Assembly: GCA_017795025.1 (NCBI GenBank)
Contig: CP051243.1
Coordinates: forward strand, 2,504,897 to 2,568,896
Reading direction: 5' to 3'
Source of the DNA: Flavobacteriales bacterium
GTDB taxonomy: Bacteria; Bacteroidota; Bacteroidia; Flavobacteriales; Schleiferiaceae
DNA length: 64,000 bases
The notes beneath the pieces were generated by a model. The model was given only the letters and a program-made list of their open reading frames with translations. It did no database searches and had not been told where the DNA came from. Below, piece by piece: positions 35,319-46,930 of this stretch (the stretch's first letter is position 1; each line of letters opens with the position of its first letter). Position numbers and translations under genes: made by a program.

Positions 35319-36308
35319 CTATTGCGCGTTGCGCTTAACAAAGCGGGCTATATCATCCCAGTATTCGTGGTGTAAAGAAGCCTGGTTAGATCCTTTATAC
35401 TGAGAGGCACCACTGATGCGGATATACTCTAAATCTTGTCCATCTACAAAGCCTTTGTTTCGAGCCGCTAAGGCAATAGGGTCGGTGCCGTAGCCAGGAA
35501 CAGTGCCGGTATAATAGGTGCCAATTATCCGGGTTCCATCATTAAAATGGGCATCCCAATGGTTAATCAACATCATAGCGGCATCACTTCGATCAATCAT
35601 ATTATTATCGAAAGAATAGGTAAACATTCCGATATATCCCCGCACCTTGCTACTTGCACCCGGGTTATCAGAATTATCAAAGCCCAGTTGGTTTACCGCA
35701 TTGGTGATCATCATACGATGCGCTCCAACTCCAATAGTGGCAATCTCCGACGAATCTAGGTAGGCTACCGAAAAAGCTGTGGCTGCCCCCGTACTCCAAC
35801 CACCAATAAAGATATTGGCTGTGTCAACCGCATAAGCTTCTGCGTTTAAGCGGAAAAAGCGCACTGAAGAACGAAGGTCCTGAAAGGCCTTTACATAAGT
35901 GTTGTAACCAGGGTTTCCCGTGGCGTACTTAACAATGGCGGCATTAAGTCCCTTTAAGGCTAAATTACTGGCCAGCTGACGAAGCTTAGGCATCTCGGTA
36001 TAAGTAGACCATCCTCCTCCTGGAGCGAGTATTACTAAGGGGCGGTCGCCACCAAACTCAGAGGGTGCTGTAAAAAACTCCACTTTATGATGGTTTAATG
36101 GACCATACTGAAAACGCTGGCTCACCACCGCCTCGGCTAAGCGTTCGTTGGTACTATCGGGGTTTAAATGCCAGTTGCTTGGCTCATTGTGGATACGGGC
36201 TTCGGCCTCCGCTTTAAAACTGTCGTTGTCGTTTTCACAAGCACTAAAAGTGATTAATACCAAGCTTGCTAATAGGCCTTTGATAAAGTTGCTAATGGAA
36301 GTATTCAT
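35319..36308 (-). CDS. Lipoprotein alpha/beta-hydrolase (esterase-like)
   Basis: 329 aa from the ATG at 36308, with a lipoprotein signal (FIKGLLASLVLITFSACEND, lipobox FSAC). An oxyanion-type HGGG-like segment is seen as LVILAPGGGWSTYTEMP, followed by the nucleophile elbow FIGGWSTGAA (G-W-S-T-G), where Ser is the likely nucleophile. A His-containing end (SLHHEYWDDIARF) could supply the catalytic His. It resembles acetyl-esterase/lipase family proteins of the BD-FAE or Est type. The substrate is unknown; the location is outer or inner membrane facing the periplasm or outside. Confidence 0.8.
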   Translation of the reverse strand: MNTSISNFIKGLLASLVLITFSACENDNDSFKAEAEARIHNEPSNWHLNPDSTNERLAEAVVSQRFQYGPLNHHKVEFFTAPSEFGGDRPLVILAPGGGWSTYTEMPKLRQLASNLALKGLNAAIVKYATGNPGYNTYVKAFQDLRSSVRFFRLNAEAYAVDTANIFIGGWSTGAATAFSVAYLDSSEIATIGVGAHRMMITNAVNQLGFDNSDNPGASSKVRGYIGMFTYSFDNNMIDRSDAAMMLINHWDAHFNDGTRIIGTYYTGTVPGYGTDPIALAARNKGFVDGQDLEYIRISGASQYKGSNQASLHHEYWDDIARFVKRNAQ

Positions 36309-36466
36309 GTCTTTAAATTTTTGTTTGAACAAATTCACTGCAGCAAACCTAGCTTGCGAATACCCCCTCTTATAAGCAGCTATGTTGCGAATACTTGAAG
36401 GCGTTCACAAACTTCATTTTTTAAAGTCGTTCCCTTCTTAAACACATGTTGCAAGCTCATTAACTT

Positions 36467-37975
36467 ATGATGCAAAAGCCCTTTTTCTCCCTGAAGTGTA
36501 GTACTTTAGGAACGGATACCCACCCAATGCCAAACAAATCCCCCATATCAGTAGAAGCTGAGAACAAGGCCAACTTATCGATGGACGAGCGCTTTGTTCT
36601 TAAACTTCGTGATCACATTCTCGAAAACCTTACGGTAGAGGATTACAGTGTGGAGGATTTAGCGCAGGAGGTTGCCTTTAGTCGTTCCCATTTGTATCGA
36701 AAACTGCAAGGTCTTACCGGCCTATCTATTAGTCAGTTTATACGAAATGTTCGTCTGGAAAAGGCTTATGAGCTGCTAAAAGCCGAGGTAGCAACGGTAT
36801 CCGAAATTGCCTATCAAGTGGGCTTTGGCAGCAGCACCTATTTTAGCAAATGTTTCCACGAGGTATATGGCTTCCCACCAGGAGAACTAAAGAAACGCGG
36901 AACGGAAACCCAAACGGAAGTCCCTCCGAATAGCGGTTTAAAAATAGAGCGGAAACAAAATCCGATTGAGGCCCTACACCCCGGTGGAAATGGGGAATTA
37001 ATCGAGGAGCTTTTTAGAGCGCTCTTACCTTTTAAGCCTAGTTTGGAAAAATTCCTTTTAATCGATGAAGAAGAAGGGGAAAGTTTAGATCATCGCCTAC
37101 TGGCCTACCAAGCCATAAAGTGCTTCCCCTGGCCATTAGGAGTAGAGTTAAGACGTTTGTTCTCCGCCAGCTTTAGAGAGGTATCTGAGGAACGTTACCA
37201 GCAAAGCCTAAAAACCTTGCGGAAAACCCTGCGCTTCTGTTCCTTTTTAATGTTGGCGGAAATCTTAGAGCATTTAAACGCTGAGGGCGCCGAACTGCAA
37301 AGCTTAAAAGGACAAGGCCAGAAACTCGTTGAAGCCATGGAACGCATGGAAGATGATGACCTCCGTTTTATCTTACAAAGCTTTAAACCTGCCCTGGAAG
37401 AGTGTTCTAGGCTTTTTATTCCCGAACTAAAGTCCTTCCTCGATTCGGTTTTACTTTTAGAAGTAGAAGACTGGCTCAGCAAATCATCAGGCGAAAGCCT
37501 AGAACTGCGCTGCCAAACTTTGGACCAGTCACTAAACCTTATCCTAAAAAAACTAGGCTTTCTGGCGCGCTACCGCTTAGTTAATATTAGTGAAATCAGG
37601 GTCCTTAAAGACAAGTTTGAAAGCGCCTCCTTCGAACATCAATACCATTTTTTAAATGCGGTAGATGCCGATTTTAAGGTCCACTCCGAAAGACTGGAAA
37701 ATTTTGCCGATTCGAGGTCTGTGCTCCTCATGCATAGCATTAAAGATACCGGCAGCTTTTTAAATCTATCCCCCTTTTTGGTCGACACCTTCGAGTCGGA
37801 CCAAAAAAGTGGCAGTACCAAACGCGATGTATTTCTCCTTTATAAGGTAGAAAAAGGGCAGCTCTATTACGAGGGCTCCGACCTAAACCGCATTGAGGAC
37901 TTAAGCAATAGTAACCATTATCCGATTTGGCTCCGCGCCTTTCAGCGAAGCATGCAATACCTACGGAAATTATGA
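36467..37975 (+). CDS. AraC-type HTH protein with a large C-terminal domain of unknown function
   Basis: 502 aa from 36467; an ATG at 36527 (MPNKSPIS) or one in front of DERFVLKL is also possible. The AraC DNA-binding domain lies near the N-terminus (about residues 39-146: FVLKLRDHILENL ... YSVEDLAQEVAFSRSHLYRKLQGLTGLSISQFI ... VSEIAYQVGFGSSTYFSKCFHEVYGFPPGELKK). The remaining ~350 residues are mostly helical and match no family that I recognise; they end LNLSPFLVDTF ... YYEGSDLN. The order HTH-first is the reverse of most AraC regulators. The stop overlaps the start of the STAND NTPase by 4 bp, so the two are a coupled pair; it may sense or transmit the NTPase state. Confidence 0.8.
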   Translation: MMQKPFFSLKCSTLGTDTHPMPNKSPISVEAENKANLSMDERFVLKLRDHILENLTVEDYSVEDLAQEVAFSRSHLYRKLQGLTGLSISQFIRNVRLEKAYELLKAEVATVSEIAYQVGFGSSTYFSKCFHEVYGFPPGELKKRGTETQTEVPPNSGLKIERKQNPIEALHPGGNGELIEELFRALLPFKPSLEKFLLIDEEEGESLDHRLLAYQAIKCFPWPLGVELRRLFSASFREVSEERYQQSLKTLRKTLRFCSFLMLAEILEHLNAEGAELQSLKGQGQKLVEAMERMEDDDLRFILQSFKPALEECSRLFIPELKSFLDSVLLLEVEDWLSKSSGESLELRCQTLDQSLNLILKKLGFLARYRLVNISEIRVLKDKFESASFEHQYHFLNAVDADFKVHSERLENFADSRSVLLMHSIKDTGSFLNLSPFLVDTFESDQKSGSTKRDVFLLYKVEKGQLYYEGSDLNRIEDLSNSNHYPIWLRAFQRSMQYLRKL

Positions 37976-40590
37976 AAAAGCCGAACGCTCCATCACCCTA
38001 TAAATTCCTCGATGCCTATACGCGCGAGGATGCCGCCTTTTTCTTTGGGCGTGAGCAGGAGGTTGAGGAAGCCTACACCAAGGTTTTTCAAAGCCGTATC
38101 CTCCTGGTTTACGGCGCCTCGGGCACAGGTAAGTCGAGCCTCATTCACTGTGGCTTAGCCGATAAGTTTAAAAACAGCGATTGGCTACCAATATCCATCC
38201 GGAGGGGGGGTAATATATCCCGCTCCCTAAAGGGACAGTTGCAGCGAATGCTCGCCTATCCTGAGACCGCGGAAGGTTCAACTAACTCTTCGGCTACTGA
38301 AATTCGGAACTTAGTGCAACAGGTCTTTCTGGACCACTTTAAGCCCATCTACTTTATTTTCGACCAGTTTGAAGAGCTCTTTATCTTCGGTGATAATGAC
38401 GAGTGGCGGGCTTTTGCCCATACCCTTCAAACGCTACTCAAGAGTGAGCTCGACCTACATTTCATTTTTGTGGTGCGCGGCGATTATCTAGAGTATCTAA
38501 ACGAATTTGAAAAGCATATCCCAGGTTTCTTCGACAATCGTCTGCGGGTCGAAAAAATGAGCCCCCACCAAGCGGAACGGAGTATTATGGGTCCGGCAGA
38601 GAAGGCCGGTATTAAGATCGAAGCCGGTTTTGCCGAAAGCTTATTGCAACGCCTAAGCGGACGCAGTAAAACCGTAGAGCCAACCTTTTTACAGGTTTAC
38701 CTGGATCGCCTCTATCGCGAGGAACAGGCTCGAAATGAAGGGAACAATTTACAGTTTAGCAAGGCCGGTCTCGACCAGATGGGGCCCATCGACGACATTC
38801 TCGCGGAGTTTGTTGATGAGCAGGTTTATAAAATGGAAAGCCCCAAATTAGCTTGGGATATTCTAAAGTGCTTTGTTTCGCTAGAAGGCACCAAGATTCC
38901 TTTGCGAAAAGAGGAAGTGCGCCAAGCCCTCAATCAGTTGGGTAGCGCCTGCAGTGAGGAGGCCTTAAATCGAAATTTGGAAGAACTCGTTTCTAAACGC
39001 ATACTAAAATCTGCCGATGAAGAAGGGCGTTTAGAGCTGCGGCATGATAGCTTAGCCCTGAAAATTTATGAGCGCATTTCCTTGCAAGAAAAGGAACGCC
39101 TAGAAGTTCAACGGTTTTTAAGTCTCAGCTTTAAGGAGTTTCAAAAACGGGGCACCCTTCTTAAAGAGGAAGACCTCGCCTATGTTCTGCCGCATCAGCG
39201 TAAGCTAGATCTTAGTCCCGAAATTCAATCCTTTGTACAACAAAGTCAGAAGCGCTCTCGCAGCGCCCGGCGTAAAGCACGCAACCAACGGATTATTTTG
39301 CTCCTAATTTTACTATTGGCTCTGAGTTCATTAGTTGGCTGGTATTATACGGGGCAGGAAAAAGAACGTGCTAATCGAGCGGCTTTAATCGCCCAAGAGG
39401 CATCAGTAAAAGCCCAAGCAGAGAAGGCCCGGGCGGAGCGGGAAAAACAGAAAGCCGAAATTCAAGAAGCGGAAGCCCTTAAGCAAGCCCAGTTGGCCTC
39501 CGCCGCTCGAATTAGGGCGGAGCAGGAATCTGCCAAAGCATTGGCGGCAGAGCAACAAGCCTTACGGGAACAAAACTTGGCCCGAGCCGCGGAAACAAAA
39601 GCCTACGAAAGTGCAGAAGAGGCTCTTAGGCAAAAAGGGATCGCCGAGAAGGCCCGGGCCGAAGAGGAGCGACTAAGAAAGCTTGGCTTGGCTCGACAAT
39701 TAGCCTTACGTGCCCAACAGATGGAATACCCTGCTCGTGCTCAATTGGCTTTACAAGCTTATAAAATTCATATAGATGAAGGGGGCTCCAAGCGAGAGCC
39801 GGCTCTGTACAGTGCCCTACTCAGCGCTTATCGCGGCGCTCAAGATCAAGCCTTTTTACAGGGAATTATTCCCTTTAAAATAAGCGCCTGGCAATTGCTT
39901 AACCAGAAGCTTTATTTGCGGGATGAAGAACAAAAGGTTTATCAGTGGGAGGCGCCTCTCGCAAAGGAAAGCGCAAGTGCCACTCTTGCATGGCAGTCCA
40001 AACATCTTCTGCGCAAGGCGTCGAGTCAAGAGCTTTTTTCGGTGGAGCAAAACCAACTAAAAGTAAGAACGAATTCCGAGGAAAAGATTCTCATTTCACG
40101 AAACGGCAGCGACTTTAGGGAATTAGCGCTCCAAGCCCGGCAAATGACTTGCTTAAAATTGAGTGCGGACGGCAAGTGGCTGGCTTGGGGACAGGAAGAT
40201 GGAAAAGTATTTTTATATCAGATTGCCAATCAAAGTTTGAGGCAAATGGCCTCGCATTTTAGTGCGGTAACAGATTTACAATTTGACCCTAGCTCAAGCC
40301 AATTTGCCAGCTCTGGTTACGATCGCATGGTGCAAGTGTGGACTCTTGATAATCTAAGCCAAAGTCCCTTGCGCATTACTGACCTCGCTTATTGGGTTGC
40401 CGCTCTCCAGTTTGAGGGTGGGGAACATTTGTGGATTAATACTTTCGAAGGACACTTGTACCGGATGCCACTTAGTAGTGATCGACTATTTGAATTGCTC
40501 TGTGACGAAAACTTATCGGCGCCAAGCCAAAGGGAATGGCAACAATGGACCGATGGACAAGTAGAACTCCTTAAAGCCTGCCAACCATGA
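37972..40590 (+). CDS. Membrane-anchored STAND NTPase with coiled coil and WD40-like C-terminus
   Basis: 872 aa. N-terminal nSTAND-type P-loop domain: FFGREQEVEEAY at residues 24-35, Walker A GASGTGKSSL (48-57), Walker B FIFDQFEELF (128-137), then a VVRGDYLEYL sensor segment and winged-helix-like region with the ELRHDSLAL motif (355-363). One transmembrane helix follows (441-459), then a long Ala/Glu/Lys/Arg coiled coil (462-575). The C-terminus carries beta-propeller-like repeats (LKLSADGKWLAWGQEDGKVFLYQ; LQFDPSSSQFASSGYDRMVQVW). Such proteins act as ATP-driven switches in signalling or defence. It overlaps both neighbours by 4 bp in a five-gene chain. The start at 37972 was chosen from that overlap and from the domain start. 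Confidence 0.85.
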   Translation: MKKPNAPSPYKFLDAYTREDAAFFFGREQEVEEAYTKVFQSRILLVYGASGTGKSSLIHCGLADKFKNSDWLPISIRRGGNISRSLKGQLQRMLAYPETAEGSTNSSATEIRNLVQQVFLDHFKPIYFIFDQFEELFIFGDNDEWRAFAHTLQTLLKSELDLHFIFVVRGDYLEYLNEFEKHIPGFFDNRLRVEKMSPHQAERSIMGPAEKAGIKIEAGFAESLLQRLSGRSKTVEPTFLQVYLDRLYREEQARNEGNNLQFSKAGLDQMGPIDDILAEFVDEQVYKMESPKLAWDILKCFVSLEGTKIPLRKEEVRQALNQLGSACSEEALNRNLEELVSKRILKSADEEGRLELRHDSLALKIYERISLQEKERLEVQRFLSLSFKEFQKRGTLLKEEDLAYVLPHQRKLDLSPEIQSFVQQSQKRSRSARRKARNQRIILLLILLLALSSLVGWYYTGQEKERANRAALIAQEASVKAQAEKARAEREKQKAEIQEAEALKQAQLASAARIRAEQESAKALAAEQQALREQNLARAAETKAYESAEEALRQKGIAEKARAEEERLRKLGLARQLALRAQQMEYPARAQLALQAYKIHIDEGGSKREPALYSALLSAYRGAQDQAFLQGIIPFKISAWQLLNQKLYLRDEEQKVYQWEAPLAKESASATLAWQSKHLLRKASSQELFSVEQNQLKVRTNSEEKILISRNGSDFRELALQARQMTCLKLSADGKWLAWGQEDGKVFLYQIANQSLRQMASHFSAVTDLQFDPSSSQFASSGYDRMVQVWTLDNLSQSPLRITDLAYWVAALQFEGGEHLWINTFEGHLYRMPLSSDRLFELLCDENLSAPSQREWQQWTDGQVELLKACQP

Positions 40591-41612
40591 AACACCTATT
40601 GAGCATTCTGCTGGGCTTTAGCTTTATGGCTCAAGCCCAAAACTGTTCGCAAAACTTGGAGGAAGCACAAATCGCCTTTTTCAACGGTCGCTTTCAATCT
40701 TGTATTGAGCTCCTGAAACCCTGCATAGAGACATATGCTATTAAGGAAGACCGTATTATGGCCCTTGAAATTTTAGCGAAATCGCAACTGATGCTTGGTC
40801 AAAAAACGGAAGCCGAAGCGAGTATGTATCGTATTTTAAGTACCGACCCTTTTTACCAAGTTCGCCCAGATTTAAGCGTTTCCTTAGAGGAGCTTTATCA
40901 TCAATTCCGCCTCGTTCGGCAATGGCAGCTTGGCTTTAATCTTTCTTACTTGGCGGCAAAGTACAGCCTACTTAAAACCTGGTCTTTCTCGGGAGTAGTT
41001 GAGGAAAGTACCGCCTATGAGGCACGTCCCTCCATGCAGTTTGAAACCTGGGGAAGCTATACCCTATACCGGGGGCTTCAGGTAGAGGCCGGACTTGCCT
41101 TTCAAGCCATGAGCTTTTATCGTGCTGAGCTCCAGCAAAACTACCTCTTGCAAAGCAGTCTAGAAGATTATCAGTTTATTAGTCCGCGGTTGGGCTTGCA
41201 GTACGAGTATGCTGGGCGCAGTTTTAGTGGCTTTGTAAACTTTGGTGGTAGTATGCAAATTTTACAAAGTGCAAGAGCCGATATGGCCCTAAATCCTCAA
41301 ATTGGGGAGATACCTGCTGCCTTTGGGGGTTACCCCGAAAGTCAGGAAAACCTCGACCTCAGCTTTCAAAGAAAAAGCCTGTTGAACAATCTTTACGCTG
41401 GCATTGGCTTACGTTATGGACGCGGCCATCATCGTTTCGAGTTGAGTTACCGTTTTCAGCATGCCTGGACCAATATGGTTATAGATGATCAGCGGTTCAG
41501 CGATGCTAATTTGCTTAATAATCTAGCCTATGTCCCGGATGATTTTAGCTTTAATTACGGGCTTTGGCAAGTTGGCTATTTATACACCTTCCTAAAACCC
41601 CAAAAAAAATGA
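40587..41612 (+). CDS. TPR-containing outer-membrane beta-barrel-like protein
   Basis: 341 aa with a signal peptide (MKHLLSILLGFSFMAQAQ). The N-terminal part (residues ~20-110) has TPR-like helices (EEAQIAFFNGRFQSCIELLKPCIE ... ALEILAKSQLMLGQKTEAEASMYRILSTDPFY), followed by an alternating beta-rich region of about 210 residues ending in an aromatic (GLWQVGYLYTFL), as in an outer-membrane barrel. It is probably an outer-membrane component whose periplasmic TPR domain binds a partner, perhaps the downstream lipoproteins. It overlaps the STAND NTPase gene by 4 bp upstream and the next lipoprotein gene by 4 bp downstream. Confidence 0.75.
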   Translation: MKHLLSILLGFSFMAQAQNCSQNLEEAQIAFFNGRFQSCIELLKPCIETYAIKEDRIMALEILAKSQLMLGQKTEAEASMYRILSTDPFYQVRPDLSVSLEELYHQFRLVRQWQLGFNLSYLAAKYSLLKTWSFSGVVEESTAYEARPSMQFETWGSYTLYRGLQVEAGLAFQAMSFYRAELQQNYLLQSSLEDYQFISPRLGLQYEYAGRSFSGFVNFGGSMQILQSARADMALNPQIGEIPAAFGGYPESQENLDLSFQRKSLLNNLYAGIGLRYGRGHHRFELSYRFQHAWTNMVIDDQRFSDANLLNNLAYVPDDFSFNYGLWQVGYLYTFLKPQKK

Positions 41613-42901
41613 CCAGACTTATAGCACTTATTCTGGCAGGTATGTTTTTGCTCTCCTGTAGTCGGGATGAAGGTCATTTTGCCGATCGTTTTGTGCGCAA
41701 TTTTGCCTTGGAAGGAAATAGCAGCATGAGCGATATAATCGAGCTGCCGAATGGAAACCTGCTTCTTTGTGGACAGCTGGCTAAACCCGCCTTTAACAGC
41801 AATGTGAGCAGCGAGTTTTCCTCCTCCGACCTCGAAGAGTCGGCTCCGGCTTTAGTGCTTACCAATGCCGAAGGTTTAGTGATTGATTACTTCTTATACC
41901 CCATTGGTAACATTGACATTGACCCCATTATAAATCTTTCGGACCTCACTGGCAAAGCTCGTTTTCTGGAGATTGAAAGCCTGGCAAACGGCGGCTATCT
42001 TGTGCATGGTGAGTTTCGCAATTTTGGGATCAGTGTTGGTTTTAACAGTCCCGACCCTGAACCCGAGTCACGGAATACCATTCCTTTTTTGGTGAGGATA
42101 AACGCCAATTTTGAGCTCGAAAGCTTTCAGCAGTTTAACGGACAGGCACCTTGGGATGGCCATTTTAGATCCAGCGGTCGCCTAAAGGCCAAGCCTGACG
42201 GCAGCGGCTTTATTTTTATGATTGGCTTTGATTATCACGTACCCACAGATCGGTTTTTAGGATTTGAACTCCACGAATTGGATGCCGATGGGAATTTTGT
42301 TCGCAGTGCCGATTTCGACGAACAAAGCCTCGATAAATTCGCTCGCGATTTTTGCTTCCTTGAAAATGGCAAAATTGGAGTTGCCGGATCAAGGTTAGGG
42401 AGCTATTACCTTTTTGAAGTGGATGAGGCCAGTTTGAGTCAGTCTAAGCGAACCTTCCTGGGAGACGATGGCACTGGCGAGCGTTTCAATAACAACTTAA
42501 TTTTGGTTGAGCCACTTAGTGATGGGGGCGTTTTTTGCTTTTACACCGACCCTGTAGAAATCAACTACATCCACCATTTGGACGCTCAGGGCAACACCCT
42601 CCGTAAAGTAGATTTAGCACCCCATCAAATTGATCAATACCCCATCAACAGTTCGGTTTGCCAAAATGGTGATGTTTTACTCACTTGTAGTGATTTGGAA
42701 GATCCTAGTTTGGAGCGAGCTGTTGTATATCGCATTAACCCCGAAGGAATCAGTCGTTGGTCGAAAACTTTTGATGGTCGAGTACTTAGCATAAAGGAAG
42801 CTGAGGACGGAGACCTTTTTGTGCTGGTAGACCTAATTTATGGCGCCGGTAGTCGCAAAGCAACCTTATTTAAACTCGATCCTCATGGTGCGCTCTATTA
42901 A
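41609..42901 (+). CDS. Beta-propeller-like lipoprotein
   Basis: 430 aa from the ATG at 41609, which begins a lipoprotein signal (MTRLIALILAGMFLLSCSRD, lipobox LLSC) and overlaps the previous stop by 4 bp. At least six repeated blades share a pattern of [L/Q]-x-N/D-G-x-hydrophobic-G (ELPNGNLLLCGQL, SLANGGYLVHGEF, FLENGKIGVAGSR, PLSDGGVFCFYTD, CQNGDVLLTCSD, EAEDGDLFVLVDL), so a beta-propeller is likely. It has no recognised catalytic motif and probably acts as an adaptor on the envelope in the five-gene chain. Confidence 0.72.
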   Translation: MTRLIALILAGMFLLSCSRDEGHFADRFVRNFALEGNSSMSDIIELPNGNLLLCGQLAKPAFNSNVSSEFSSSDLEESAPALVLTNAEGLVIDYFLYPIGNIDIDPIINLSDLTGKARFLEIESLANGGYLVHGEFRNFGISVGFNSPDPEPESRNTIPFLVRINANFELESFQQFNGQAPWDGHFRSSGRLKAKPDGSGFIFMIGFDYHVPTDRFLGFELHELDADGNFVRSADFDEQSLDKFARDFCFLENGKIGVAGSRLGSYYLFEVDEASLSQSKRTFLGDDGTGERFNNNLILVEPLSDGGVFCFYTDPVEINYIHHLDAQGNTLRKVDLAPHQIDQYPINSSVCQNGDVLLTCSDLEDPSLERAVVYRINPEGISRWSKTFDGRVLSIKEAEDGDLFVLVDLIYGAGSRKATLFKLDPHGALY

Positions 42902-43436
42902 GCTTTTAGTCCTAGTCCTAATCCTAGCTGCCTGTCAGGATGATGAAGATGTATCGGCCCCCGAGCCACGCAAGGCTATGGTTGGTTTATGGCAATACGA
43001 CCACATAATTGTAGAAGATATCTTAGTGACCCCTTTTGCCGATAATAAAATGGAACCGGGCAGCTTTAAAGGCAATTTAGGTGGGGAGCGGGCAGAGCTT
43101 AACCGCCGGCGTGTGCGCTATTATGAAGATGGGACCTATCAACTACTCTGGCTCGATCGCGGTGCCTATGAATTGGGAACCGATGGAGATCCAAATTGGC
43201 AGCCCTCCTTTGGCATGTATCGGACCAATCAGGGAGAAGATAGCCTGATTCACAACAGTCCACTTTTTTACGCACAAGCCTACTCGCTTAGCTTTAATGG
43301 CGACACCCTTATTCGCACCTCTTACCGCTATATGAGTAGTAATAGTAGAGATAACAACAGTGGCGCCTCAGCTAACCTTTGGCAGCCTGGCGATACCGTT
43401 AAATATCAAGAGGTTTTCCATCGGGTTTCTGACTAA
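42885..43436 (+). CDS. Small lipoprotein of unknown function
   Basis: 183 aa from the ATG at 42885, with a lipoprotein signal (MVRSIKLLVLVLILAACQDDED, lipobox LAAC). The rest has a lipocalin-like feel (VGLWQYDHIIVED ... RVRYYEDGTYQLLWLDRG) but no firm family. The gene overlaps the end of the beta-propeller lipoprotein by 17 bp and is the last of the five-gene chain. Confidence 0.7.
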   Translation: MVRSIKLLVLVLILAACQDDEDVSAPEPRKAMVGLWQYDHIIVEDILVTPFADNKMEPGSFKGNLGGERAELNRRRVRYYEDGTYQLLWLDRGAYELGTDGDPNWQPSFGMYRTNQGEDSLIHNSPLFYAQAYSLSFNGDTLIRTSYRYMSSNSRDNNSGASANLWQPGDTVKYQEVFHRVSD

Positions 43437-45658: not shown

Positions 45659-46081
45659 TCAGCCTTCAAAGCCAAGTCGTTTATGACTACCATCGCAAAA
45701 GGGCTTATTGGCCGATCCGCCGCAGCGGCATAATACCGGATTGTGCTCCACCGAGCTACTGCCGTCGGCATGACTAAACTTAATATCGCCTTGTAACATT
45801 ATAGGACCATTGGGCATTACCTTGGCGGTGATGGGACCTGCTTCCAGGGCTTCCCCTTTGGTTTGGCCAACATAGCTTAGCGCTCCCGAAGGACATTTTT
45901 CAATTTGGGCACGTATAACCTCGCCAGAAGCCCCATTTGGGTCAACCCAGGGCTTTTTTCCATAGCGAAATACTTCTGGTAAATTTCGCCAGCAGCGTTC
46001 TGAATGGATGCATTTATGGGCTTGCCAGATAATGGTGACCTCTTCACCGGTATACTCTTTTCGAGAAGGTTTTACTTTCAT
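45659..46081 (-). CDS. Iron-sulfur protein: YjdI-type (4Fe-4S) domain fused to CDGSH domain
   Basis: 140 aa from the ATG at 46081; a start at 46138 is open but YjdI proteins normally begin near KEYTGEEVTIIW. The first part (HKCIHSERCWRNLPEVF ... IEKCPSGAL) is the divergent mono-cluster ferredoxin domain of the YjdI family; the second (CRCGGSANKPFCDGSHKRLGF) is a CDGSH zinc-finger-like domain that holds a 2Fe-2S cluster through three Cys and one His. Both functions in one chain suggest an electron-transfer or cluster-transfer protein of the cytoplasm. A neighbouring role cannot be inferred. Confidence 0.88.
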   Translation of the reverse strand: MKVKPSRKEYTGEEVTIIWQAHKCIHSERCWRNLPEVFRYGKKPWVDPNGASGEVIRAQIEKCPSGALSYVGQTKGEALEAGPITAKVMPNGPIMLQGDIKFSHADGSSSVEHNPVLCRCGGSANKPFCDGSHKRLGFEG

Positions 46082-46153
46082 ATGCAAAGGGGGATTTTGC
46101 CAAAAGGCATGAACCTCATTTGCATTAAATGTAGGCAATAATTTGAGGCCTAC

Positions 46154-46930
46154 CTAAAGGATGTCTTCGCTAAACTCGGTGTAAGACAAGCACAGCTTTA
46201 GTTCCTCCCAGTTTTCCACAAAATCACTATACTTTTGCGGACTGATTTTTTGTAGGCTGCTCTTTGGCTGGATAAACCGCAAGCCTAAAAAATGACTCAG
46301 GCGGTCGTATAAACGGAGCCGATCAAATTCCTGCAGTAAGTCCTCTTCATAGTTAACTTCAAAATAGCGTAGGCCTTTCAGGCATTGCTTTTCATATTCT
46401 TCGAGCGCCTTTCCAGCTCTTAATTCGATTAAAAAAGCAGGAATGTCCACGGTCATTTTTTCGATTTGGCGCTGGGCTTCCGCCTGATGCCAGGTTTGAC
46501 GAAAGCGAGCATAATGCTTGGAAAGGGTTTGCCGCACCAAATTGCTACGGCTCAGGAATACGATTTTATACCCTTTTTTTTCGCTGAGGTAGCGCAAGAA
46601 CTCATGGCCATCCTCCTGATTTAGAATCTCCTTTAACTGATAGGAAAGGAGTTTAAAACCATAAACCTTCGATCTAAAAACACGATTGCGGAATTTTAAA
46701 AACAAGCGTGGAAATAACACCTTGCGATTAAAGATTTCTTTATCACAATCCACTTCATGCGACTTATTAAGCATGTCTGTTAAAAGGGTGGACCCCGTTC
46801 TTCCTCGTCCAAACAAAACGAAATGTTGCTGATGATTAGTAACAGGATAAACCAAAGCGCGATAGACCGCCACGGCCTCCCGCAAATAACCACCCAGGTT
46901 TTGATTTAAGCTTGAAATAAGATGAGGCAT
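46154..46930 (-). CDS. Sulfotransferase-like protein
   Basis: 258 aa. The 5'-phosphosulfate-binding loop is seen as FVLFGRGRTGSTLLTDMLNKS (about residues 37-57) and the 3'-phosphate-binding motif as IVFLSRSNLVRQTLSKHYAR (near residue 125). These two elements are typical of PAPS-dependent sulfotransferases of the Stf0 or family-1 type. The substrate is unknown; cell-surface glycan or lipid is possible. It is 15-16 bp from the CDGSH gene's longer reading frame and probably co-transcribed with it. Confidence 0.78.
   Translation of the reverse strand: MPHLISSLNQNLGGYLREAVAVYRALVYPVTNHQQHFVLFGRGRTGSTLLTDMLNKSHEVDCDKEIFNRKVLFPRLFLKFRNRVFRSKVYGFKLLSYQLKEILNQEDGHEFLRYLSEKKGYKIVFLSRSNLVRQTLSKHYARFRQTWHQAEAQRQIEKMTVDIPAFLIELRAGKALEEYEKQCLKGLRYFEVNYEEDLLQEFDRLRLYDRLSHFLGLRFIQPKSSLQKISPQKYSDFVENWEELKLCLSYTEFSEDIL

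Follow-up and report, generated by a model that had tools for sequence, protein, structure and literature searches.

What connects a DNA-binding protein, a STAND NTPase and three envelope proteins that are encoded head to tail in one overlapping row? The question is raised by a locus in the window, the whole stretch of 64,000 nucleotides analyzed here (G000:C1:2504897-2568896; contig CP051243.1), from a Flavobacteriales bacterium of the family Schleiferiaceae, whose genome is a single contig of 3.44 Mb (G-numbers denote genomes and L-numbers fetched DNA stretches). Five genes on the forward strand, g1 to g5, overlap successively by 4, 4, 4 and 17 bp in the list of open reading frames (ORFs), and a divergent sixth gene (36308-35319, reverse strand) belongs with them as a conserved neighbor of g1. 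On balance, and from comparative sequence analysis, we think that the set probably encodes a trans-envelope, STAND-controlled transcription switch acting on its own operon and on the divergent esterase-like gene. Its parts are as follows.

35319-36308, reverse strand: divergent alpha/beta-hydrolase lipoprotein (BD-FAE-like), with a signal peptide and lipobox; the ORF extends to a GTG at 36338
36467-37975, forward strand: g1 ORF as annotated, 502 aa
36527-37975, forward strand: g1, AraC helix-turn-helix (HTH) plus adaptor, with the probable start taken from its homologues
36659-36898, forward strand: AraC HTH domain of g1 (aa 65-144 of the 502-aa ORF; HTH_18, 1.3e-19)
36968-37972, forward strand: adaptor domain of g1, without a Pfam family, common to standalone and CHAT-fused proteins upstream of nSTAND1
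37972-40590, forward strand: g2, nSTAND1 NTPase, transmembrane helix, coiled coil and WD40 propeller (Pfam and motifs)
39292-39348, forward strand: single predicted transmembrane helix of g2 (aa 441-459), its N side rich in lysine and arginine
40587-41612, forward strand: g3, signal peptide, predicted periplasmic TPR-like part and outer-membrane beta-barrel (homologue matches)
41609-42901, forward strand: g4, lipoprotein with a predicted beta-propeller fold (AlphaFold2, Foldseek)
42885-43436, forward strand: g5, small lipoprotein without a known family

The overlaps on which the original prediction had built its five-gene row are real and conserved in relatives (4/4/4/14 bp in G003; 4/47/4/17 bp in G048, where the g3 start codon giving the 47 is unsure), and its domain assignments for the first two genes hold. 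Both AraC-type profiles score above their gathering thresholds at the N-terminus of g1 (HTH_18 at 1.3e-19, 70.7 bits; HTH_AraC at 1.2e-16, 60.8 bits), and no transmembrane helix is predicted in this protein. G2, its start taken as the in-frame ATG at 37972 (the ORF list gives a TTG at 37927), matches nSTAND1 (PF20703) at 4.4e-45, with 155.4 bits against a gathering score of 27.1, and WD40 at 3e-08. Its Walker A (GASGTGKS, aa 48) and Walker B (YFIFDQFE, aa 127) motifs are both intact, LRHDSLA follows at aa 356, and a coiled coil was recognized by eye in an Ala/Glu/Arg-rich stretch. Elsewhere in the row, Pfam gave no match for g4 and only sub-threshold matches for g3 and g5, and an NCBIfam search of the locus proteins gave nothing above its cut-offs.

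Nearly all NTPases of this kind carry one strong hydrophobic helix between the NTPase and the repeat domain. Lysine and arginine counts over the 15 residues on each side of this helix were compared in 37 proteins (L039, L101, L106, L107, L110-L113, L115, L117, L126 and L137 lay outside the test). The N side was the richer in all 35 STAND or split-STAND proteins, among which L114, L116 and L118 are split-off transmembrane halves, and a cytoplasmic NTPase with a periplasmic propeller is therefore predicted for g2. In L112, L113, L114, L116 and L118 two genes seem to share the STAND between them, one for the NTPase and one for the transmembrane part, the second of which apparently lies upstream of the adaptor in L112 and L113.

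The set is rare but coherent. The C-terminal domain of g1 occurs in four of 296 genomes of the order, the window's own genome counted: G000, G003 of the same genus, and G048 and G059 of another family. In all four, across two families and at differing genomic sites, the six genes occur together in the same order. Where the AraC-adaptor gene is present, the five genes do travel together, in the company of the sixth; in G059, g1, g2 and g4 are interrupted by stops or frameshifts, through either decay or assembly error. When g2 alone and g3 alone were searched against 59 genomes, the same five were matched at adjacent positions (G000, G003 and G048, with G022 and G024 at low scores). The block of 8.1 kb is absent from the rpoN-lysS site of four congeners (G001, G002, G004, G005), in which rpoN, a small membrane-protein gene and lysS stand in direct succession; a different gene occupies this site in G006. 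The STAND gene and a full-length g1 are found in two of the seven genomes of the genus searched. In G048 the set adjoins thyA (named by eye), and the rpoN locus of that genome lacks it. The block is an accessory cassette, for which transfer and repeated loss both fit. Foreign GC content was considered as a sign of transfer and discarded, the block (0.44-0.50) hardly differing from its surroundings (0.42-0.46), with somewhat higher values at 38-40 kb.

What would the DNA-binding protein act on? The region between g1 and the divergent gene holds the following elements.

36381-36387, forward strand: half-site A, TATGTTG; in the four genomes B1 follows 64, 64, 66 and 65 bp downstream
36445-36472, forward strand: putative operator, half-sites B1 and B2 as a direct repeat with 21-bp spacing
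36445-36451, forward strand: half-site B1, CATGTTG
36466-36472, forward strand: half-site B2, TATGATG, which holds the annotated g1 ATG at 36467
36502-36509, forward strand: candidate promoter-like -7 element, TACTTTAG, resembling TAnnTTTG

Each of the four genomes has exactly three copies of YATGWTG here on the g1 strand, and in all four two copies lie exactly 21 bp apart. When all lags from 9 to 80 were compared, a 7-mer repeat (one mismatch per copy) shared by the four sequences appeared at 21 alone, and none of 150 dinucleotide shuffles reproduced it at that lag; since the four intergenic sequences are related, the shuffles overstate the surprise, and the exact spacing is the stronger point. 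AraC half-sites lie about 21 bp apart, and autoregulating activators usually have an arrangement of this kind, with an AraC protein at direct repeats just upstream of a promoter in a divergent intergenic region; judged by its sequence, the repeat is likely an AraC-type operator. TAnnTTTG is the -7 element of Bacteroidota, and the other three genomes have TACTTTAG or TACATTTAG as their -7-like element. The annotated start of g1 at 36467 was rejected because it lies inside the conserved half-site B2 and the extra residues are missing from homologues; these open at about the position that corresponds to 36527, which is probably where g1 itself starts. The operator pattern occurs without mismatch once each in G000, G048 and G059, always at the locus, and twice in G003; as the pattern was derived from these sites, only the rarity of other matches is informative.

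The second perfect YATGTTG-N14-YATGWTG of G003 (L159:7998-8025; G003:C2:179997-180024) is neighbored by an AraC-type gene of 929 aa (HTH match; TPR-like N-terminus by eye) and, on the divergent side, by a secreted hydrolase-like gene of 393 aa (by eye). This is the AraC-operator-hydrolase anatomy of the locus without the STAND. In G048, a site with one mismatch to the operator pattern (L160:7944-7971; G048:C1:872943-872970), which has the inner TGAACATATGT stretch as well, lies upstream of a gene for a secreted FG-GAP-like protein (by eye), in the opposite orientation.

How the DNA-binding protein might be coupled to the NTPase is suggested by the adaptor, the remainder of g1. A contig profile search with it found the G003 contig and one other locus, L054 from a Cyclobacteriaceae bin, where a standalone adaptor is followed by an nSTAND1-transmembrane-WD40 protein, a TPR-barrel and two more lipoprotein-like genes. 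In a phylum sample of 395 genomes, which missed adaptor loci later reached through the NTPase, it was found only in the window's own genome and, weakly (5.8e-4), in G618, where an nSTAND1 gene likewise follows; none was found in viral contigs. With the NTPase part as query, a class search (395 genomes, at most four candidates scored per genome) found 51 places, spread over 36 genomes, at E <=1e-15. From it 40 further stretches were taken, of which 20 are close (L099-L118, from 14 genomes) and 20 distant (L119-L138, from 19 genomes). In 15 of the 20 close loci the gene immediately upstream encodes the adaptor (E <=1e-18), counting a fragment at a contig edge in L106; that of L115 is doubtful (1e-5), and L101, L102, L109 and L111, some of them near contig ends, have none upstream. 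It occurs in 0 of the 20 distant loci. At its N-terminus the adaptor carries nothing, a CHAT protease or an AraC HTH, the last in the four genomes only. In trees of 18 adaptor-NTPase pairs, which omit L039 (broken), L106 (fragment), L110 (truncated ORF) and L115 (weak) and in which the CHAT label of L116 is by resemblance only, the three AraC-fused proteins form one clade (99/98 for the adaptor, 100/99 for the NTPase). The pairwise distances of the two partners are correlated (Mantel r 0.91, a value that none of 2000 permutations reached).

Some adaptor loci depart from the common layout. In G618 (L065:8903-12886) the adaptor has an N-terminal domain of no Pfam match, and the nSTAND1-transmembrane protein behind it ends in a leucine-rich-repeat-like part (by eye) instead of a propeller, with no TPR-barrel nearby; a reading by eye of this N-terminus as DUF4062 was dropped, Pfam giving nothing at E 0.05. 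A divergent gene for a HEPN_STY4199 protein (L104:2339-3937, reverse strand; 122.6 bits against a cut-off of 25) adjoins a standalone adaptor-nSTAND1 pair, and in L105 the corresponding position is taken by a 532-aa gene. Two tandem nSTAND1 genes occur in L101 and L106, in L106 behind the one adaptor fragment; the larger proteins there (~1320-1360 aa) may carry other sensor domains.

On the envelope side, the TPR/beta-barrel-like character ascribed to g3 was judged largely from homologues. G3 itself has a sub-threshold TPR-like match and no barrel-family match in Pfam, its homologues in L054 (27.8 against a gathering score of 27) and L132 (50.0, above gathering) match OMP_b-brl_2 (PF13568), and that in L114 matches no barrel family. 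A TPR-barrel profile built with L054 and L066, and with none of the 40 survey loci, found such a gene in the same-strand STAND cluster of 12 of the 20 distant loci (L119, L120, L121, L123, L124, L125, L127, L128, L130, L132, L133, L135) and downstream of the STAND in five of the 20 close ones (L099, L100, L103, L105, L114), with a fragment upstream in L101; it matched nothing in 27 unrelated control loci and g3 alone in the window. On its own terms the original prediction is refuted in part: more remote nSTAND1 homologues regularly lack the g1 HTH, g4 or g5, though many retain the adaptor (15 of the 20 close loci, 0 of the 20 distant) or the TPR-barrel (five close, 12 distant). In the reverse test, a nine-row TPR-barrel profile made 59 matches in 34 of the 395 class genomes, 23 of which are among the 36 STAND genomes, where about 3 were expected. 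Of these 59 matches, 49 were looked at, and 35 have an nSTAND gene no more than 6 kb away. Among 20 stretches fetched for this test, an nSTAND gene adjoins in 12 (L175, L177-L183, L190-L193), the neighbors in L191-L193 being already predictable from the NTPase search, and eight lack one (L176, L184-L189, L194), six of these with tandem TPR-barrels. The tandem genes of L176 and L185-L189, mostly accompanied by lipoprotein-like genes with no STAND nearby, may form surface units in their own right or work with STANDs from other parts of the genome.

A g3-type N-terminal part is also common to TonB receptors in G022 and G024, where a STAND-less helix-coiled coil-WD40 propeller protein stands beside the receptor. 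In these clusters (L051:6084-10317, L052:7503-11714) the STAND-less gene precedes the receptor gene, and ABC-transporter genes and anti-sigma- and phosphatase-like signaling genes (by eye) are present as well.

The two lipoproteins of the original prediction are upheld by lipoprotein-type signal peptides, LLSC in g4 and LAAC in g5. The AlphaFold2 model of g4 (pLDDT 68.4, pTM 0.73, from two sequences) has its best Foldseek matches in the PDB among the propeller proteins CylK, YncE and lectins of Photorhabdus, with E-values of 1.3e-10 to 1e-7 and TM-scores of ~0.5-0.6 when normalized to the query; another match is titled Dos1 propeller. G4 is predicted from this model to be a beta-propeller. Lipoproteins matching its profile at <=1e-9 adjoin STAND genes in L114, L124, L132, L135 and L190, and one does in L066, which helped to build the profile; owing to control matches in L020 (weak, 2e-4) and L159 (2e-6), this profile is less specific. 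Significant homologues of g5 were seen only alongside the AraC variant. Taken with the cytoplasmic and inner-membrane parts, the original description of a single module that reaches from the cytoplasm through the inner membrane to the outer membrane is supported.

How would such a switch work? The g3 barrel with its periplasmic TPR part and the lipoproteins g4 and g5 would pass information to the WD40 propeller of g2 in the periplasm. From there the signal would cross the inner membrane through the transmembrane helix and coiled coil of g2 to reach the cytoplasmic nSTAND1 NTPase. Once activated, g2, which like other STANDs would presumably be a multimer with ATP bound, would engage the g1 adaptor. 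This engagement would set the binding of the AraC domain to the 21-bp direct-repeat operator, whose occupancy would control the operon itself and the divergent secreted esterase. The contacts, g1-operator binding, nucleotide switching, the direction of control (activation or repression) and the ligand are parts of this scheme that we infer. A precedent is MalT, which is monomeric with ADP and oligomeric with ATP, and whose DNA binding needs oligomerization (PMC10427625). From this behavior, the g2 NTPase may be expected to multimerize on an envelope signal and then engage the adaptor.

Could the same wiring serve defense or competition sensing, the barrel and lipoproteins detecting phage adsorption or a cell-contact attack and the AraC output being protective? 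We consider this unlikely, although it is the most probable of the alternatives and has kinship in its favor, since relatives carry CHAT, TIR or DUF4062. All six suspected CHAT-adaptor proteins searched against Pfam score above the CHAT gathering threshold (L117 barely), and the His and Cys motifs (HYxGHA and NGC) are intact in seven of nine upstream proteins examined, the His motif being missing within the ORF in L115 and L116. Just upstream of distant transmembrane nSTAND1 genes, TIR_2 (L126, L138) and DUF4062 (L126, L134, L183, L191, L192) score above gathering, with sub-threshold DUF4062 in L175, L180, L182 and L193. The upstream proteins of L122 and L124 have no Pfam match, so that a TIR domain suspected by eye in L122 was abandoned; of similar-sized downstream proteins, that of L181 matches nothing and that of L178 matches TIR very weakly. 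Phosphatases of the TPR-SpoIIE kind are encoded close to the STANDs of L099, L100, L102 and L103, and the STAND of L122 has a SpoIIE-HAMP gene nearby. The CHAT and TIR/DUF4062 outputs make an immune origin of the system plausible, and the patchy occurrence in the genus (two of seven genomes) would suit defense as well. Against it, no PADLOC system model matched the set: g1 had one weak CARF match (0.019), g2 HEAT-ARM_XIII over the propeller only (6.9e-14) and weak P-loop matches, and g3-g5 none, while the relatives gave weak or P-loop/propeller matches, with ThsB for the TIR protein of L138. The output at the locus is a DNA-binding domain with a likely operator, no toxic effector is encoded there, and the conserved divergent esterase suggests metabolism. 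Of the originally proposed 'envelope-sensing or defense' module, envelope sensing remains the natural reading and defense at this locus is unsupported.

In a somewhat less probable alternative, g3-g5 and the esterase would form a nutrient-type uptake or degradation machine at the surface under AraC control, with g2 a mere scaffold through which no signal passes. The divergent lipoprotein matches BD-FAE (PF20434) at 8.9e-11, above the gathering score, a BD-FAE/abhydrolase-type lipoprotein gene adjoins g1 divergently in all four genomes, and G169 G170 W171 S172 x G174 is invariant across the four sequences. The structure matches of g4 include lectins. Surface-export signals are reported for lipoproteins of Bacteroidetes (PMC5080379), and the acidic residues after the lipobox Cys (SRDE in g4, QDDED in g5) resemble them, a likeness that is suggestive only. 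Such a machine fits poorly with intact Walker A and B motifs in g2 and with the correlated adaptor-NTPase distances; STAND-barrel pairs elsewhere, moreover, were seen without an adjoining esterase-like gene (the hydrolase profile was run on the 40 survey loci, the reverse-test stretches falling outside this search). A g2 that is wholly cytoplasmic, its hydrophobic stretch spanning no membrane and the envelope genes merely co-transcribed, is very improbable: hydropathy and charge are all that place the helix, but it stands between NTPase and repeats in nearly all relatives, its N side is K/R-rich in 35 of 35, and two STAND-less relatives begin with such a helix.

The trans-envelope switch, which we continue to prefer, has several observations to contend with. 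Operator matches with at most one mismatch number 8, 17, 10 and 6 in G000, G003, G048 and G059, against 6, 4, 6 and 13 for the reversed pattern; a wider regulon is not claimed, there being no consistent excess over this control, though G003 is in excess. The second perfect operator of G003 stands beside a different AraC-type gene, and the site may therefore not be specific to g1. The AraC variant is known from four genomes in two genera only, so that its co-conservation is little replicated, and the survey loci are partly non-independent, several sharing a genome or genus. As to topology, L107, L117 and L137 show no transmembrane helix at the threshold used, and the STAND-less proteins of L051 and L052 have fewer lysines and arginines before the helix than after it; these proteins open with the helix, only four residues preceding it. 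A TPR-barrel is missing from eight of the 20 distant STAND loci, and 14 of the 49 TPR-barrel matches looked at have no STAND within 6 kb. Finally, the AlphaFold2 model of the adaptor (pLDDT 39.8) is too poor to interpret.

Past lysS lie genes for a CDGSH iron-sulfur-like small protein (45659-46138, reverse strand) and a sulfotransferase-like protein (46154-46930, reverse strand), both named by eye, and no RNA families or tRNAs were found in the window.

Is this a known system under another guise? In FecA-FecR-FecI, an outer-membrane protein signals to transcription across the envelope; the locus has no anti-sigma or sigma gene among the five, and an NTPase and an AraC protein instead. MalT, the E. 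coli STAND activator, is a closer likeness in that a STAND NTPase controls transcription (PMC10427625). Its DNA-binding effector domain is C-terminal in the same polypeptide, whereas here the HTH is AraC-type and NTPase and HTH are encoded by separate genes, g2 and g1; unlike MalT, moreover, the STAND of the locus has a transmembrane helix. MalT is inhibited by the acetyl esterase Aes (PMC10427625), and the locus likewise has an esterase-like gene, but this one encodes a lipoprotein, and the parallel may be accidental. The nSTAND1/EAD and EACC1 conflict systems (PMC8195603, PMC7159879) share with the locus the nSTAND1 clade and the principle of a constant domain with swappable effectors, and with its relatives caspase-superfamily and TIR effectors. 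EACC1 has a transmembrane helix and is paired with a caspase gene (PMC7159879), whereas the g1 adaptor has none and no caspase is found among the five genes; the adaptor matches no Pfam model, and the words 'outer membrane' are absent from the main texts of both papers. The antigen sensors of STAND/ternary systems diversified by diversity-generating retroelements combine nSTAND1 or NACHT with proposed sensor domains, some with CHAT or TIR domains and some predicted to reach the periplasm; these sensors have a C-type-lectin fold, and the available part of PMC10907252 describes no outer-membrane partner, TPR-barrel, propeller lipoprotein or AraC output. No named system for the set was found in Pfam, NCBIfam, PADLOC or the literature, which agrees with the original prediction, and no description of an nSTAND1-outer-membrane module was found in a literature search that was mostly open-access and left bioRxiv preprints outside its scope.

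Beyond the locus, the STAND family includes NLRs, MalT and the anti-phage Avs proteins. Its members are described as intracellular signaling proteins (PMC10427625). More tentatively than for the switch itself, we suggest that an undescribed class of envelope-spanning, NLR-like receptors exists across Bacteroidota, in which an nSTAND1 protein with a periplasmic propeller, a TPR-beta-barrel partner and propeller lipoproteins serve interchangeable outputs (CHAT, TIR/DUF4062, a standalone adaptor with SpoIIE genes nearby, AraC), and in which an immune-type receptor would have been re-plumbed once, in the lineage of the window, into a transcription switch. Since one and the same adaptor is joined to a protease domain in some relatives and to a DNA-binding domain in g1, the locus would let the conversion of a cell-death-type receptor into a gene switch be tested directly, and its operator would provide a simple reporter in the search for the signal of the receptor. 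If the reading is true, a STAND with a periplasmic sensor and an outer-membrane barrel would be a new route for surface information into the Gram-negative cell.

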